Origin: Nitrospinota bacterium
Lineage (GTDB): Bacteria; Nitrospinota; Nitrospinia; Nitrospinales; Nitrospinaceae
Assembly: GCA_029879645.1 (NCBI GenBank)
Contig: JAOUPX010000013.1
Span: forward strand, 1 to 43,846
Reading direction: 5' to 3'
Length of the DNA stretch: 43,846 bases
The translations under genes were made by a program, and so were the position numbers. Of the stretch, positions 38,990 to 43,846 are shown piece by piece; the stretch's first letter is position 1; each line of letters opens with the position of its first letter. Below the pieces are notes generated by a model. The model was not told the DNA's origin. It was given only the letters and a program-made list of their open reading frames with translations, and searched no databases.

Positions 38990-39050
38990 CTGGATTTATA
39001 GGAGGCGGAAACGGAGCGGGGATTCGCCTGATTTAGATTTTGTTAGTGTG

Positions 39051-39080
39051 TTGCAATATTTTATTGCAATGCTTCATTGC
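39051..39080 (+). promoter_or_regulatory. Upstream activator site of nirK
   Basis: TTGCAATATTTTATTGCAA (39051-39069) is a perfect 8-bp inverted repeat with a 3-base spacer. It overlaps a second one, GCAATG-CTT-CATTGC (39066-39080). They lie about 95-125 bases upstream of the predicted sigma-54 start, the position where enhancer-binding proteins bind. The TTGC-N11-GCAA frame recurs at the promoter of the facing regulator. Confidence 0.7.
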
Positions 39081-39147
39081 TCTTAATGCACAATTCCCTG
39101 AATATATAGCTATATGAAATATAAGGCTTTTATTTATTTGTAAGTGA

Positions 39148-39164
39148 TTGGCACGATCCTTGTA
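39148..39164 (+). promoter_or_regulatory. Sigma-54 promoter of nirK
   Basis: TTGGCACGATCCTTGTA matches the consensus YTGGCACGRNNNTTGCW except for T in place of C at the -12 GC. The -24 GG and the 10-base spacing to -12 are exact. The predicted start is near 39174, leaving a leader of about 37 bases with a strong GGAGG before the ATG. Confidence 0.8.
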
Positions 39165-39211: not shown

Positions 39212-40228
39212 ATGAGTAAAAAGAGCGTGCCAGCCATATTCGGCTGTTTACTGATGATATGGGGATTAGCGGGATGTGGCACTACCGCAAGCGTTGCACA
39301 GGCGGATGCGTCGGACAAAGAAGTCGGCCCACTGACCTCTGCTCCGAATGTGCCCCCGCCCATCACGCGGTCGGGTGGCCAAACAGTGGTTCTCAATTTC
39401 GAGGCGAAGGAATATATCGGTGATATCGCCGATGGCGTCAAATACAACTTCTGGAGTTTTAATGGCACCGTGCCGGGTCCGATGGCGCGTGTGCGCGTTG
39501 GGGATACCGTCGAGTTTCATCTGAACAATCCGGAGTCCAACACCCAGCAGCACAATATCGATATCCATGCAGTGAACGGTCCGGGCGGCGGCGCGGCAGT
39601 AAGTACGGTCTCCCCCGGCGAGTCGAAGGTGTTCACCTTCAAGGCGCTGTCACCGGGCCTGTTCATTTACCATTGCGCGGCGGGATCGATCGTCGATCAC
39701 ATTTCCAACGGCATGTATGGCCTGATTCTGGTAGAGCCGGAAGGTGGCCTGGCCAAGGTGGACCGAGAATTTTATGTGATGGAAAGCGAGTTCTTTGCCG
39801 GCGAGCCGGATGAAAATGGCGTGGCCGCGTTTGATATCACCAAAGGGCTGGCGGAGCATCCGACGTATGTCGTGTTCAACGGCAAGCAGGGCGGTTTGAT
39901 GGGCGACAACGTTCTGAAAGCCAAAGTGGGTGAGACGGTGCGGATGTATTTCGGTAACATCGGCCCCAATGGAATTTCTTCATTCCACATCATTGGCGAG
40001 ATTTTCGACAAGGTGTATCAGGAAGGCGGCCTTGGCGGAACCGTACATACGGGTATCCAGACCACCCTGGTGCCCTCCGCCGGTGCGACTGTAGTCGAAT
40101 TCAAAGTAGATGTGCCGGGAGCCTACACCCTGGTAGATCACAGCATCTTCCGCGTGGCCAAGGGTGCCATCGGTCAGTTGGTTGTTGAAGGACCGGAAAA
40201 CCCTGGAGTGTACCGGTCGGGGGAATAG
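39212..40228 (+). CDS. nirK: Copper nitrite reductase, AniA-type lipoprotein
   Basis: 338 residues. The signal peptide ends in LAGC (C22), a lipobox, so it is a lipoprotein facing the periplasm or outer membrane, like Neisseria AniA. Two cupredoxin domains are present. The type 1 copper ligands are H114, C155, H163 and M168 (HCAAGSIVDHISNGM). The type 2 site is H119, H154 and H310 (LVDHSIF), with catalytic D117 (HNIDIH) and H259 (SSFHIIGE). The C-x7-H spacing and stretches such as GMYGLILVEPEGGLAKVDRE are AniA/class II features. It reduces nitrite to nitric oxide. GGAGG six bases upstream supports the ATG. Control is predicted by sigma-54, and the regulator lies convergent downstream. Confidence 0.96.
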   Translation: MSKKSVPAIFGCLLMIWGLAGCGTTASVAQADASDKEVGPLTSAPNVPPPITRSGGQTVVLNFEAKEYIGDIADGVKYNFWSFNGTVPGPMARVRVGDTVEFHLNNPESNTQQHNIDIHAVNGPGGGAAVSTVSPGESKVFTFKALSPGLFIYHCAAGSIVDHISNGMYGLILVEPEGGLAKVDREFYVMESEFFAGEPDENGVAAFDITKGLAEHPTYVVFNGKQGGLMGDNVLKAKVGETVRMYFGNIGPNGISSFHIIGEIFDKVYQEGGLGGTVHTGIQTTLVPSAGATVVEFKVDVPGAYTLVDHSIFRVAKGAIGQLVVEGPENPGVYRSGE

Positions 40229-40272
40229 GTGGGGAACTTTATTTTTCCCTGACCCATCACTCTCCTCAGAGG

Positions 40273-40309
40273 CCCCCTGTGGATGCCATAACATCCGCAG
40301 GGGGTTTTT
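40273..40309 (+). terminator. Intrinsic terminator of nirK
   Basis: CCCCCTGTGGATG pairs with CATCCGCAGGGGG with one mismatch, followed by TTTTT. It lies 45 bases after the nirK stop. Confidence 0.9.
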
Positions 40310-40312
40310 AAG

Positions 40313-40484
40313 ATGATCCAATTTCTGTGTGGTCCAGGGACTTACCTGGAAGTTGATTGTGAAAAGATCCAAACCCTGGAGTGTATTGGTACGGGAGGCA
40401 GTTGAGAATTTTTGTTTCCCGATTTTTTGCTCTCTCCCTTAGGTTCCCTGCGGATGCTAGCGCGTCCGCAGGGTTTTCTTTATT
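40313..40484 (+). pseudogene. Decayed tandem copy of the nirK 3' end and terminator
   Basis: This stretch aligns by eye, in order and on the same strand, with the last 80 bases of nirK and its downstream region, 173-175 bases further on. TTCTGTGTGGTCCAGGG matches TTCCGCGTGGCCAAGGG. An identical 15-base block AAACCCTGGAGTGTA occurs at 40198-40212 and 40371-40385. The region after the stop also aligns, and CCCTGCGGATGC..TCCGCAGGG plus TTTTCTTTATTT mirrors the nirK terminator. The coding frame is destroyed by stops and small indels, although KDPNPGVYW echoes GPENPGVYR. It looks like the remnant of a tandem duplication. Confidence 0.75.
40446..40484 (+). terminator. Second nirK-type terminator (in the duplicated copy)
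   Basis: CCCTGCGGA and TCCGCAGGG form a perfect 9-bp stem around TGCTAGCGCG, followed by TTTTCTTTATTT on the plus strand. It reaches the last codon of the convergent regulator gene. It is a backup stop for nirK read-through; on the minus strand there is no T run. Confidence 0.85.
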
Positions 40485-41815
40485 TAGAGATTAAACTCCT
40501 TCAATTTGCGCCAGAGGGTGATGCGGTGCACCTTGAGGTGTTCGGCGGCGCGGGTCTGGTTGTGGTCGCATGCTTCCAGGGCTTCCTTGACGATTTTTTG
40601 GGTCAGCCACTTGCGCTTGCGTTTGACCTTATCGTTATTCTCACCGGTAAGCAGATAGGCGGGCAGGTCGCGCAATTCAATGGTCGGACCGAGGGCCTTG
40701 ATGCAGGCGTGCTCGATCGCATTTCCGAGTTCGCGTACATTGCCCGGCCAGGAGTGATCCATCAGTTGGCCCAGGGTTTCACCGGACAGGCTGTTGATAC
40801 GTTTGCGGTGCTTTGATTTCCACCGATCGATAAACCGTTCGGCCAACAGCGGAATGTCCTCTTTTCTTTGGCGCAGGGGGGGCATGTGAACCGGGAAGAC
40901 GTTCAGGCGGTAATAAAGATCCTCGCGGAACCGGCCTTCATCAACTTCCCGTTTAAGATTCTTGTTGGTGGCGGCGATGATGCGGATATCGACTTTGCGG
41001 GTTCGGTTTTCGCCGACGCGTTCGATTTCCTTTTCCTGCAGGACGCGCAGGAGTTTGACCTGGATGCCGGGACTCATGTCGCCTACTTCATCGAGGAAGA
41101 TAGTGCCGCCGCTGGCTTCTTCGAATCGGCCTATGCGGTCCTGGAGCGCTCCGGTAAACGCGCCTTTAACGTGGCCGAACAATTCGCTTTCCAGCAGGCT
41201 GTCGGAGAAGGCTGAACAGTTGACCTTGATCAGGTTCTTTCCCGCACGCGGGCTTTCGTAATGAATGGCACTTGCCACCAACTCTTTTCCTGTTCCGCTT
41301 TCTCCTTCAATAAAAACCGTGGAATCATAGTAAGCCACGTTCTGGATGGTGCCGAACACCTCTTTCATCTCCGGGCTTTTTGCCACCATGTTGCGGAATG
41401 AGTTTGTTTCTTGAAGCTCCTGTTTCAGGCGAGTCACTTCAGTGATGTCGGTTAATGACACCAGTACTTCCGTGTTGCCTTTCCCGTCCTTGTGCAGAAG
41501 GCCGGCCTGGAAATCCCCAATGCGCCGAACTCCATCCTTGCGGATAAAGGCAGAATTGAAAGTAACTTTGCTGTGTTGAGCTTGCTTGACAGACATGCAC
41601 AGGGCGCAGTTGTTCAGGCAAATACTTTGGTCGAACAGGGTGGTGCATTTTTTCCCAAGAACGTCTTCGCTGGCGTGTCCGGTGATTTTCTCTGCCGCAG
41701 CATTAAAATATTGTATTTCCATGTTCTGATCGTAGATGAAAACAGCTTCGTTCAGTGTGTTTAAAACGGTGTTTAGATAGGGAACAGGTTTTTGAGCCAT
41801 AGGTATCGCGTCCAT
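40484..41815 (-). CDS. Sigma-54-dependent PAS-AAA+-Fis transcriptional activator
   Basis: 443 residues from the ATG at 41815; an ATG at 41800 is an alternative, and neither has a clear ribosome site. Residues about 10-125 form a PAS domain (LNEAVFIYDQNMEIQYFNAA) with a cysteine motif C57-x8-C66-x3-C70-x2-C73. The AAA+ domain shows Walker A GESGTGKE (171-178), the sigma-54-contacting GAFTGA loop, and Walker B GTIFLDE. The C-terminus is a Fis-type HTH (NQTRAAEHLKVHRITLWRKL). There is no receiver domain, so it senses a signal itself through PAS, perhaps redox or NO. It converges on nirK, whose promoter is sigma-54-like, so nirK is its likely target. Confidence 0.93.
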   Translation of the reverse strand: MDAIPMAQKPVPYLNTVLNTLNEAVFIYDQNMEIQYFNAAAEKITGHASEDVLGKKCTTLFDQSICLNNCALCMSVKQAQHSKVTFNSAFIRKDGVRRIGDFQAGLLHKDGKGNTEVLVSLTDITEVTRLKQELQETNSFRNMVAKSPEMKEVFGTIQNVAYYDSTVFIEGESGTGKELVASAIHYESPRAGKNLIKVNCSAFSDSLLESELFGHVKGAFTGALQDRIGRFEEASGGTIFLDEVGDMSPGIQVKLLRVLQEKEIERVGENRTRKVDIRIIAATNKNLKREVDEGRFREDLYYRLNVFPVHMPPLRQRKEDIPLLAERFIDRWKSKHRKRINSLSGETLGQLMDHSWPGNVRELGNAIEHACIKALGPTIELRDLPAYLLTGENNDKVKRKRKWLTQKIVKEALEACDHNQTRAAEHLKVHRITLWRKLKEFNL

Positions 41816-41843
41816 TTTCAATGAATTTGGAATACAAAAATCA

Positions 41844-41885
41844 ATAATACGCCTCCCGGGGGAATGTTGCAATAAACTTACGCAA
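41844..41885 (-). promoter_or_regulatory. Promoter of the sigma-54 activator with overlapping TTGC-N11-GCAA operator
   Basis: On the minus strand TTGCAA (41867-41872), a 17-base spacer and TATTAT (41844-41849) form a sigma-70 promoter. TTGCAATAAACTTACGCAA (41867-41885) has the same TTGC-N11-GCAA frame and first eight bases as the nirK upstream site. It overlaps the -35, a position expected for autorepression. Confidence 0.6.
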
Positions 41886-42252
41886 CAATTATTTTTCAGG
41901 CCGGTTTTGATTCAGGAGGATGGTTCAGTTGGCAACGAAGCTATAAAGATAGCCACTTTTGTCTAGATACGATTATTTTGTGGTTAACGTCACAATAAGC
42001 TGAAGGGCGCTTATTAAGGACAGCCAATAAAATCAATAGGTAAGTCGAAGTGTATATAAAAAAAGACACTTTTGTGTTGAGATTGTGTGAAATTATGTTG
42101 ATTTACCTTAATTTTCCATGTTAGATTATATGTATCTTATTAATAAATTGATTCAGTCGTTTTGATTTAGCAGGACATGCATTTTCCCCAACGGAAAATC
42201 TCGCGATGCGGTATGGAGAGTGCATGAAGGTAGTGAGGAGGGACAATTAATC
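41886..42252. other. AT-rich intergenic region upstream of the MlaC-like gene
   Basis: About 370 bases without a credible gene. It holds a possible plus-strand promoter, TTGATT (42098-42103), 18 bases, TAGATT (42122-42127). A perfect 7-bp hairpin ATTTTCC-CCAAC-GGAAAAT (42181-42199) lies in the likely leader, 53 bases before the start. Nothing else was recognised. Confidence 0.45.
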
Positions 42253-42951
42253 ATGAATAAAAAAAATAAATATTCCATATTGGTTGCTACGGCGTTTTCC
42301 TTTTTTCTGATTGTTCCCCCGGCGGCTATTTCCAAAAGCGCAGGGGAATCCGAAGGGCAGGTGACCCGGAAAATTTCGCAACCGGCAAAATCCGAGCCGA
42401 TCAAAGTGGCGGCGGTAGGAACCACTGGATTTGGATTCTCCGACGCGGCGAGCGGATTGAAGATGACCGTGGATCAGGTTCTGGAAATCGTGACGGACGA
42501 AAATCTGAAAAAGGATGCTAAATCACGTCAGCTGGCTCTCAAGAATGTGATTGGGAAGCGATTTGATTTCAGGCAAATGGCGATGCATACCCTGGACAGC
42601 GACTGGGGCAGCCACTCCCGGAAAGAGCAAAAACAGTTCACCGGTCTGTTCAAAAAGCTTCTGGAAAAATCGTATTTGCACATCATTGAGAATTTCCAGG
42701 GAGGCAAGGTGCATTTCCTGAGCGAGCGGGTTAAAGGCGATTACGCCTTTATCAAAACCAATATCGTGAGTCCGGATCGAACCATCGCCATCCACTATAA
42801 ACTGAAACGGGATGGCAAGGACTGGCGGGTATATGATTTCCTGGTGCAGGGAGTCAGTATGGCCCGGAACTACCGTTTCCAGTTTTCCAAGGTCATCAGG
42901 CAGGAGTCATTTCAAGGACTGCTTAAACGGTTGAAAGAACAAACCGCCTGA
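42253..42951 (+). CDS. MlaC/Ttg2D-family phospholipid-binding protein
   Basis: 232 residues from the ATG at 42253, preceded by GGAGGG. A signal peptide (KYSILVATAFSFFLIVPPAA, cleavage near residue 27) leads to a 40-residue linker and then the MlaC domain. Typical features are LALKNVIGKRFDFRQMAMHT, WGSHSRKEQKQFTGLFKKLL followed by EKSY, and GKDWRVYDFLVQGVSMARNY near the end. MlaC is the periplasmic carrier of phospholipids between the inner and outer membranes. The other mla genes are not in this window, so it is an orphan here and may serve another lipid or hopanoid. It is followed by an intrinsic terminator. Confidence 0.88.
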   Translation: MNKKNKYSILVATAFSFFLIVPPAAISKSAGESEGQVTRKISQPAKSEPIKVAAVGTTGFGFSDAASGLKMTVDQVLEIVTDENLKKDAKSRQLALKNVIGKRFDFRQMAMHTLDSDWGSHSRKEQKQFTGLFKKLLEKSYLHIIENFQGGKVHFLSERVKGDYAFIKTNIVSPDRTIAIHYKLKRDGKDWRVYDFLVQGVSMARNYRFQFSKVIRQESFQGLLKRLKEQTA

Positions 42952-43033: not shown

Positions 43034-43633
43034 TTAAAACCGGAATCGTGCTCCAAACAGAAAATCATGGCTGGAATATTCTGTTTTGAAAGGTCCAGAG
43101 ACAGCCAGATTGAAACTGGGGTCAGTAGTCGTAAAATAGCGGTATCCAAAAGTCAGTGTGGCCTTGGGGGTGATATCGAAACCGAGACCGGCCATAAATT
43201 GAAACGCTGCCACCATGTCTGAGTCACTATCCGTAAATCCGAAGAAGTCTTCTTCAACTCCAACAAGCGCAAATCCCAGTCCGGCTCCGACGTAAGGTCT
43301 CAAGGGAGATTGGGTGGGGATATCGAAATATCCGTTACCCATGAAACTTACGGCGCTGAAGGTGAAATCCTGAGGAAATCCGGCCACGTCAGAGCTGTTG
43401 TAATGCAAGCCTACTTCTCCCTCGATTCGGAGAATGGGGCTCATTTCCACACCAATCGCTCCATTGACCACTAAGGCAGGATCATTGTTGAATTCGTTTC
43501 CTGAGGGTCCAGCAATATCTGAATTGGGCCGTACCCCGAACCCGAGGTTACCGGATAGATAAGCTTGCTGTGCCCAGACCGGGGCGGCCGAGAATAATAA
43601 GCTGACTAGTAAGAATCCAATGATTTTTCTCAT
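43034..43633 (-). CDS. Small outer-membrane beta-barrel protein (OmpW/opacity-type)
   Basis: 199 residues from the ATG at 43633, preceded by GGGAG. Signal peptide RKIIGFLLVSLLFSAAPVWA, cleaved before QQAYLSGNLG. About eight amphipathic strands follow, such as LRIEGEVGLHYNSS, LRPYVGAGLGFALVGVEEDF and ATLTFGYRYFTTTD, ending in HDFLFGARFRF with the terminal aromatic for Bam recognition. This is the pattern of the OMP_b-brl/OmpA-membrane-domain-like porins with short periplasmic turns. Function unknown. A paralogue begins at 43722 just upstream on the same strand, with the same C-terminal motif, so it is a tandem pair. Confidence 0.85.
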   Translation of the reverse strand: MRKIIGFLLVSLLFSAAPVWAQQAYLSGNLGFGVRPNSDIAGPSGNEFNNDPALVVNGAIGVEMSPILRIEGEVGLHYNSSDVAGFPQDFTFSAVSFMGNGYFDIPTQSPLRPYVGAGLGFALVGVEEDFFGFTDSDSDMVAAFQFMAGLGFDITPKATLTFGYRYFTTTDPSFNLAVSGPFKTEYSSHDFLFGARFRF

Positions 43634-43721
43634 AACTTCTCCCAAGGATAAGTTCTTAATATGAAAGGATCGTCAAGTTTAGGCCAGCGAAACGAACAGA
43701 GATTTTGCGAAGAAGGTGATT

Positions 43722-43846
43722 TTAAAAACGGAAACGGGCGCCGAACAGGAAATCGTGGCTTTTGTATTCCGTTTCAAAGAACCCTGGTCCCGCCAAAGCA
43801 AAATCGGGATCCGTGGTTGTGAAATAACGGTAACCAAACGTCAAAG
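43722..43846 (-). CDS. Paralogous outer-membrane beta-barrel protein, C-terminal fragment
   Basis: Only about 40 C-terminal residues are in the window: TFGYRYFTTTDPDFALAGPG, then FFETEYKSHDFLFGARFRF and a TAA at 43722-43724. They match the end of the neighbouring 43034-43633 protein at most positions, so the two are tandem duplicates. The gap between them (88 bases) contains a TTGACG-like -35 element. The N-terminus is outside the window. Confidence 0.87.
   Translation of the reverse strand, partial: LTFGYRYFTTTDPDFALAGPGFFETEYKSHDFLFGARFRF

Follow-up and report, generated by a model that had tools for sequence, protein, structure and literature searches.

Comparison of the window, the whole analysed DNA stretch of 43,846 nucleotides, with related genomes suggests that a sigma-54 enhancer-binding protein (EBP) encoded beside the copper nitrite reductase gene nirK probably uses a shared operator in two ways, activating nirK by way of sigma-54 and repressing the sigma-70 promoter of its own gene. 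The same site is found at both promoters and is kept in about 20 relatives, so that one protein very likely controls nirK and itself. Such a dual role had been proposed in the preliminary description of this DNA; conservation and co-occurrence support the proposal, and we infer binding, activation and repression from them. The two genes adjoin each other and are assigned as follows.

39212..40228, plus strand: nirK, copper nitrite reductase of 338 aa with a lipoprotein-like N-terminus (TIGR02376 equivalog, Pfam).
40484..41800, minus strand: activator gene, PAS - AAA+ (sigma-54 activator) - Fis-type HTH, 438 aa (Pfam PF13426, PF00158 and PF02954; start alignment).

NirK scored 320.2 bits on the TIGR02376 equivalog, above the cut-off of 296.3, and thus belongs to this family. 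The start of the activator was placed at the ATG at 41800, which is conserved in congeners, 41815 being an alternative start. Its N-terminal domain is PAS (PF13426, PF00989), with no GAF match in Pfam, followed by a sigma-54 AAA+ domain (PF00158, 4.1e-72) containing the Walker A motif GESGTGKE and an intact GAFTGA loop, and by a C-terminal Fis-type HTH (PF02954, 2.7e-10). The gene rpoN was found in the genome of the window (G000; PF04552, 2.9e-57). Judged by its domains, the type of its target promoter and the presence of rpoN, the activator is a sigma-54 EBP; it scored below every curated equivalog cut-off listed (NifA, NorR, NtrC, ZraR and others), including that of NifA (TIGR01817, 373.5 bits with a cut-off of 528.85), and only distant EBPs were matched in named genome records, with 38-55% identity and mostly over the AAA+ domain. 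Four cysteines in the PAS domain (C-x8-C-x3-C-x2-C, window 41585-41650) are invariant in 21/21 orthologues, while all four are kept in one, three in two and none in one of four outgroup EBPs. A PAS domain with these cysteines is a possible metal or iron-sulfur redox sensor. The recognition helix reads HR(I/V)TLWRK or LWRQ within the clade and SRTTLWRK in the outgroups. Elsewhere in the window, the 3' end of nirK and a terminator-like stem appear by eye to be duplicated as an imperfect direct repeat (40205-40312 and 40375-40480), placed between nirK and the activator gene, and two tandem, similar outer-membrane beta-barrel-like proteins are encoded on the minus strand at 43034-43645 and 43720-43846, the second running off the window.

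The promoter of the activator gene carries a dyad over its -35 box.

41865..41887, minus strand: operator of the activator gene, palindrome TGTTGC-N11-GCAACA that includes the -35 box and spans about -50 to -28 relative to the predicted start site, kept in orthologues.
41867..41872, minus strand: -35 hexamer TTGCAA, the promoter-proximal operator arm; same TTGCAA-N17-(-10) layout in 16/17 operators.
41844..41849, minus strand: -10 hexamer TATTAT; TATTAT/TATGAT kept in four congeners.

TTGC-N11-GCAA sites had been reported at both promoters, together with the activator promoter TTGCAA-N17-TATTAT, and all of them proved to be positioned exactly, with TTGCAATAAACTTACGCAA sitting at 41867-41885. 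The N11 core was right; the outer bases, which had been missed, extend it to a 23-bp palindrome, 41865-41887, with 0 mismatches. Read on the minus strand, the promoter consists of TTGCGTAAGTTTATTGCAA, 17 bases and TATTAT, the hexamers lying at 41872-41867 and 41849-41844, and it is the only sigma-70-like site in 41780-42300; a sigma-54 promoter was looked for upstream of the EBP gene and none was found. The half-site TTGCAATA is indeed shared with the nirK site. As a minor correction, because the activator lies on the minus strand, this half corresponds to the arm nearer the promoter (ATTGCAA, which includes the -35), and the two sites agree at 15/19 positions in the other orientation versus 13/19 in the one originally used.

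Across the 3.2-Mb genome, no other site matches TGTTGCAW-N7-WTGCAACA as well as 41865-41887, which has one mismatch; the nirK site and three further sites have two. The three further sites were rejected as extra targets, being located within coding sequence (C76, C185) or between convergent genes (C202), which leaves the activator and nirK promoters as the candidate targets.

Activator and nirK orthologues were collected from related genomes and their upstream regions were read for dyads, giving TGTTGCA-N7..11-TGCAACA as the conserved operator. Dyads matching a fixed consensus were counted in 250 bp upstream, the spacing between the arms being allowed to range from 7 to 11, against a shuffled null. 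The operator was present at 18/22 activator orthologues with at most one mismatch (null mean 0.00) and at 20 of the 22 with at most two (null mean 0.13). It persists down to about 60% protein identity, and the same count with at most one mismatch gave 0/7 for more distant EBPs. Upstream of the activator in four congeners, 18/23 operator columns are invariant, versus 15/153 upstream and 3/16 downstream of it. No other block of this region is strongly conserved, and apart from the operator only the -10 stands out. The location on the -35 box, as originally claimed, recurs in relatives with its 17-bp spacing: in 16/17 clear activator operators a promoter-proximal TTGCAA is followed by exactly 17 bp and a -10-like hexamer. 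Since this layout is kept while the arm spacing drifts, from N11 to N13, the -35 overlap can be argued to be under retention.

Variants of the arrangement were observed as well. In genus g11, the activator gene of several relatives carries two dyads in tandem. In genus g8 (L109, L110, L156), the dyad upstream of the activator has degenerated or given way to near-direct repeats of TGCAAC that lie closer to the start codon, and the recognition helix is HRVTLWRK instead of HRITLWRK; the exact operator architecture is therefore not universal. The activator of G047 is split across two contigs, with the operator upstream of the N-terminal piece. In G031 (L230:3020-3120), the activator occurs a second time with a perfect operator; this copy breaks off in a stretch of N, beyond which the sequence reads as a dehydrogenase gene, and it was left uncounted as a probable assembly join.

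As in negative autoregulation, the gene of the regulator has a conserved operator that overlaps its core promoter. It is unlikely that the same EBP acts with the opposite sign, activating its own promoter from about -39 in a class II-like positive feedback, or has no effect there. The operator centre at about -39 is near the binding place of class II activators, as is generally known, and the -35 TTGCAA matches the consensus at only 4/6 positions. However, nearly all relatives have an operator arm that doubles as the -35 hexamer and stands at the optimal distance of 17 bp from a good -10, and with the arm itself serving as this hexamer, polymerase and an EBP dimer would compete for the same bases. 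Moreover, EBPs with an intact GAFTGA loop act via sigma-54, the promoter type that was not found upstream of the EBP gene. Autorepression is thus the preferred reading at the activator gene, and it would be paired with activation at nirK, where the following elements were found.

39051..39069 (23-bp form 39049-39071), plus strand: nirK upstream site, dyad TTGCAATA-TTT-TATTGCAA, centre at about -114 from the predicted sigma-54 start site; block kept in congeners.
39064..39082, plus strand: second, overlapping weaker dyad TTGCAATGCTTCATTGCTC, 2 mismatches; third half-site 13 bp on; TTTCATT kept in congeners.
39149..39164, plus strand: sigma-54 promoter of nirK, TGGCAC-N5-TTGTA (-24/-12); 17/19 columns identical in four congeners.

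The site upstream of nirK, TTGCAATATTTTATTGCAA, sits at 39051-39069. The nirK half-sites lie about 100 bp upstream of the sigma-54 promoter, an element absent from the preliminary description, and about 114 bp upstream of the start site is the usual enhancer distance for the sigma-54 EBP class. In the four congeners, conservation amounts to 24/38 columns in the half-site cluster, 17/19 in the sigma-54 promoter and 24/71 between them.

At nirK, the combination of operator and sigma-54 promoter is almost confined to cases in which the activator is present. The dyad, with at most two mismatches, was found at 24/27 nirK genes of the activator group (null mean 0.26) versus 1/29 other nirK genes, and sigma-54 boxes at the chosen score at 26/27 versus 0/29. 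The 27 genes include nirK of G016 and G020, incomplete assemblies in which no activator was found and whose congeners have one, and both of these carry operator and sigma-54 promoter; the unlinked second nirK copies in G008 and G017 are left out. Under a strict genome-based label, activator, operator and sigma-54 promoter are combined in 22 of the 55 nirK rows, 25 have none and 8 are exceptions, the rows sharing ancestry. Phylogenetically independent pairs on the NirK tree gave about 2.8/7 concordant and 0.4 discordant, so that the concordant direction prevails, the roughly seven contrasts being too few for significance. Second nirK copies in genomes that have the activator (L155 in G008, L158 in G017 and the second copy, L166, in G026) are without operator and without sigma-54 promoter, indicating that the regulation belongs to a single copy, in most cases the linked one, and not to nirK as such. 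In G021, nirK and the EBP gene lie on different contigs, and the only exact GTTGCA-N9..11-TGCAAC of that genome is just upstream of nirK, which makes mere neighbourhood hard to accept as the explanation. Genera g4 and g14 include relatives that lack the activator and have exact matches; these matches have mixed-composition centres, with none listed at nirK, and were judged to be chance or unrelated. Of two that were examined, one stands before an amine-oxidase-type gene, and the other is on a short contig where no clear gene follows.

The co-occurrence also bears on the proposed identity of the operator-binding protein. Another regulator, for instance of the Rrf2 or CRP/FNR type, could bind both sites and co-regulate nirK and the EBP gene, with the EBP acting at nirK via other sequence; NsrR, DNR, NnrR and FNR are the known nirK regulators elsewhere (PMC1274295). 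We regard this as improbable, because the operator tracks the EBP across genomes, no further clear promoter target was found in the genome of the window, and the nirK operator stands at a typical enhancer distance from the sigma-54 promoter, with no other block as strongly conserved. That two unrelated TTGC...GCAA sequences arose by chance or composition in AT-rich intergenic DNA is scarcely credible: the loose TTGC-N11-GCAA pattern is at chance level both in the window (2 versus 1.01 expected; 25/100 shuffles as high) and in the 3.2-Mb genome (54 versus 39 for the reversed control, a count that was dropped as evidence), but across genera and families the extended palindrome keeps its position, its phase and its overlap with the promoter, with a null near 0, and this comparative conservation already contradicts a chance reading. 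The significance of the operator comes from the longer palindrome and its conservation in relatives, not from the loose pattern. The preliminary description had named random frequency combined with lack of conservation as what would speak against it; random frequency was indeed seen for the loose pattern, whereas conservation is clear.

For the circuit in which the EBP governs both promoters, the observed sites, promoters, domains, conservation and co-occurrence lead us to infer binding by the EBP, opposite effects at the two sites and a response to a signal. The Fis-type HTH would let EBP dimers recognise TGTTGCA-N9-TGCAACA. At nirK, the enhancer would consist of the pair of overlapping dyads, situated about 114 bp before the sigma-54 start site, and from there the AAA+ ring would reach and open the sigma-54 polymerase complex. 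At the EBP gene, a single dyad would cover the -35 of the sigma-70-type promoter, and bound EBP would exclude RNA polymerase, its own level staying low and steady. The PAS domain with the invariant C-x8-C-x3-C-x2-C probably senses a signal, which may be redox, NO or oxygen. On balance, we lean slightly towards a broader picture of a hitherto undescribed, lineage-specific EBP family, with a four-cysteine PAS domain maybe holding an iron-sulfur cluster, which would serve as a dedicated switch for nitrite reductase, controlling nirK alone through sigma-54 in addition to its own gene by autorepression; the operator would likewise be lineage-specific, with drifted arm spacing and a retained -35 overlap, and the lineage would be that of marine nitrite oxidisers.

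NirK is found in most sequenced nitrite oxidisers, where its role is unresolved (PMC3578206, PMC6606698, PMC4585252). If the genome, presumably one of Nitrospinota, belongs to this group, a dedicated regulator with a defined operator would offer a direct handle on the role of NirK, and the signal freeing or activating the EBP would tell when the cell wants NirK. With the conserved operator, nirK regulation can also be recognised in any genome or metagenome from this group.

In other nitrogen-cycling bacteria, nirK is regulated by NsrR, DNR and NnrR (PMC1274295). These are Rrf2 or FNR-type proteins that do not act via sigma-54, whereas nirK here has a sigma-54 promoter. No paper describing sigma-54 control of nirK was found in the open-access full-text literature, an absence that is weak evidence, and the Nitrospinota genome papers found there report nirK and no regulator for it; the regulator-operator pair and the sigma-54 control of nirK appear unreported in that literature. 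The arrangement resembles that of NorR and NorR2, which serve the nitric-oxide response in Proteobacteria, in having a dedicated sigma-54 EBP beside a nitrogen-oxide gene. Tandem NorR2 sites lie upstream of a sigma-54 promoter at the target, and norR2 itself is preceded by one site and no sigma-54 promoter, which was read as negative autoregulation (Rodionov et al. 2005, PMC1274295). The sensor of NorR is a GAF domain (PMC2941729), unlike the four-cysteine PAS domain here. NorR operators are GT-N7-AC or GATGT-N7-ACATC as opposed to TGTTGCA-N9-TGCAACA; tandem GT-N7-AC operators were not found, the conserved element being TGTTGCA-N7..11-TGCAACA. The targets of NorR are norVW, norAB, hmp and hcp rather than nirK, and the activator scored 343.2 bits on the NorR equivalog (NF003451), below its cut-off of 476. 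By score, sensor domain and operator, the activator is placed outside NorR. NtrC combines activation through sigma-54 with repression of the sigma-70 promoter of its own gene. It differs in its receiver domain, operator and global regulon from the PAS-containing activator with its local two-promoter circuit, which scored below the cut-off of the NtrC model. With NorR2 and NtrC as precedents, the circuit type itself is already known.
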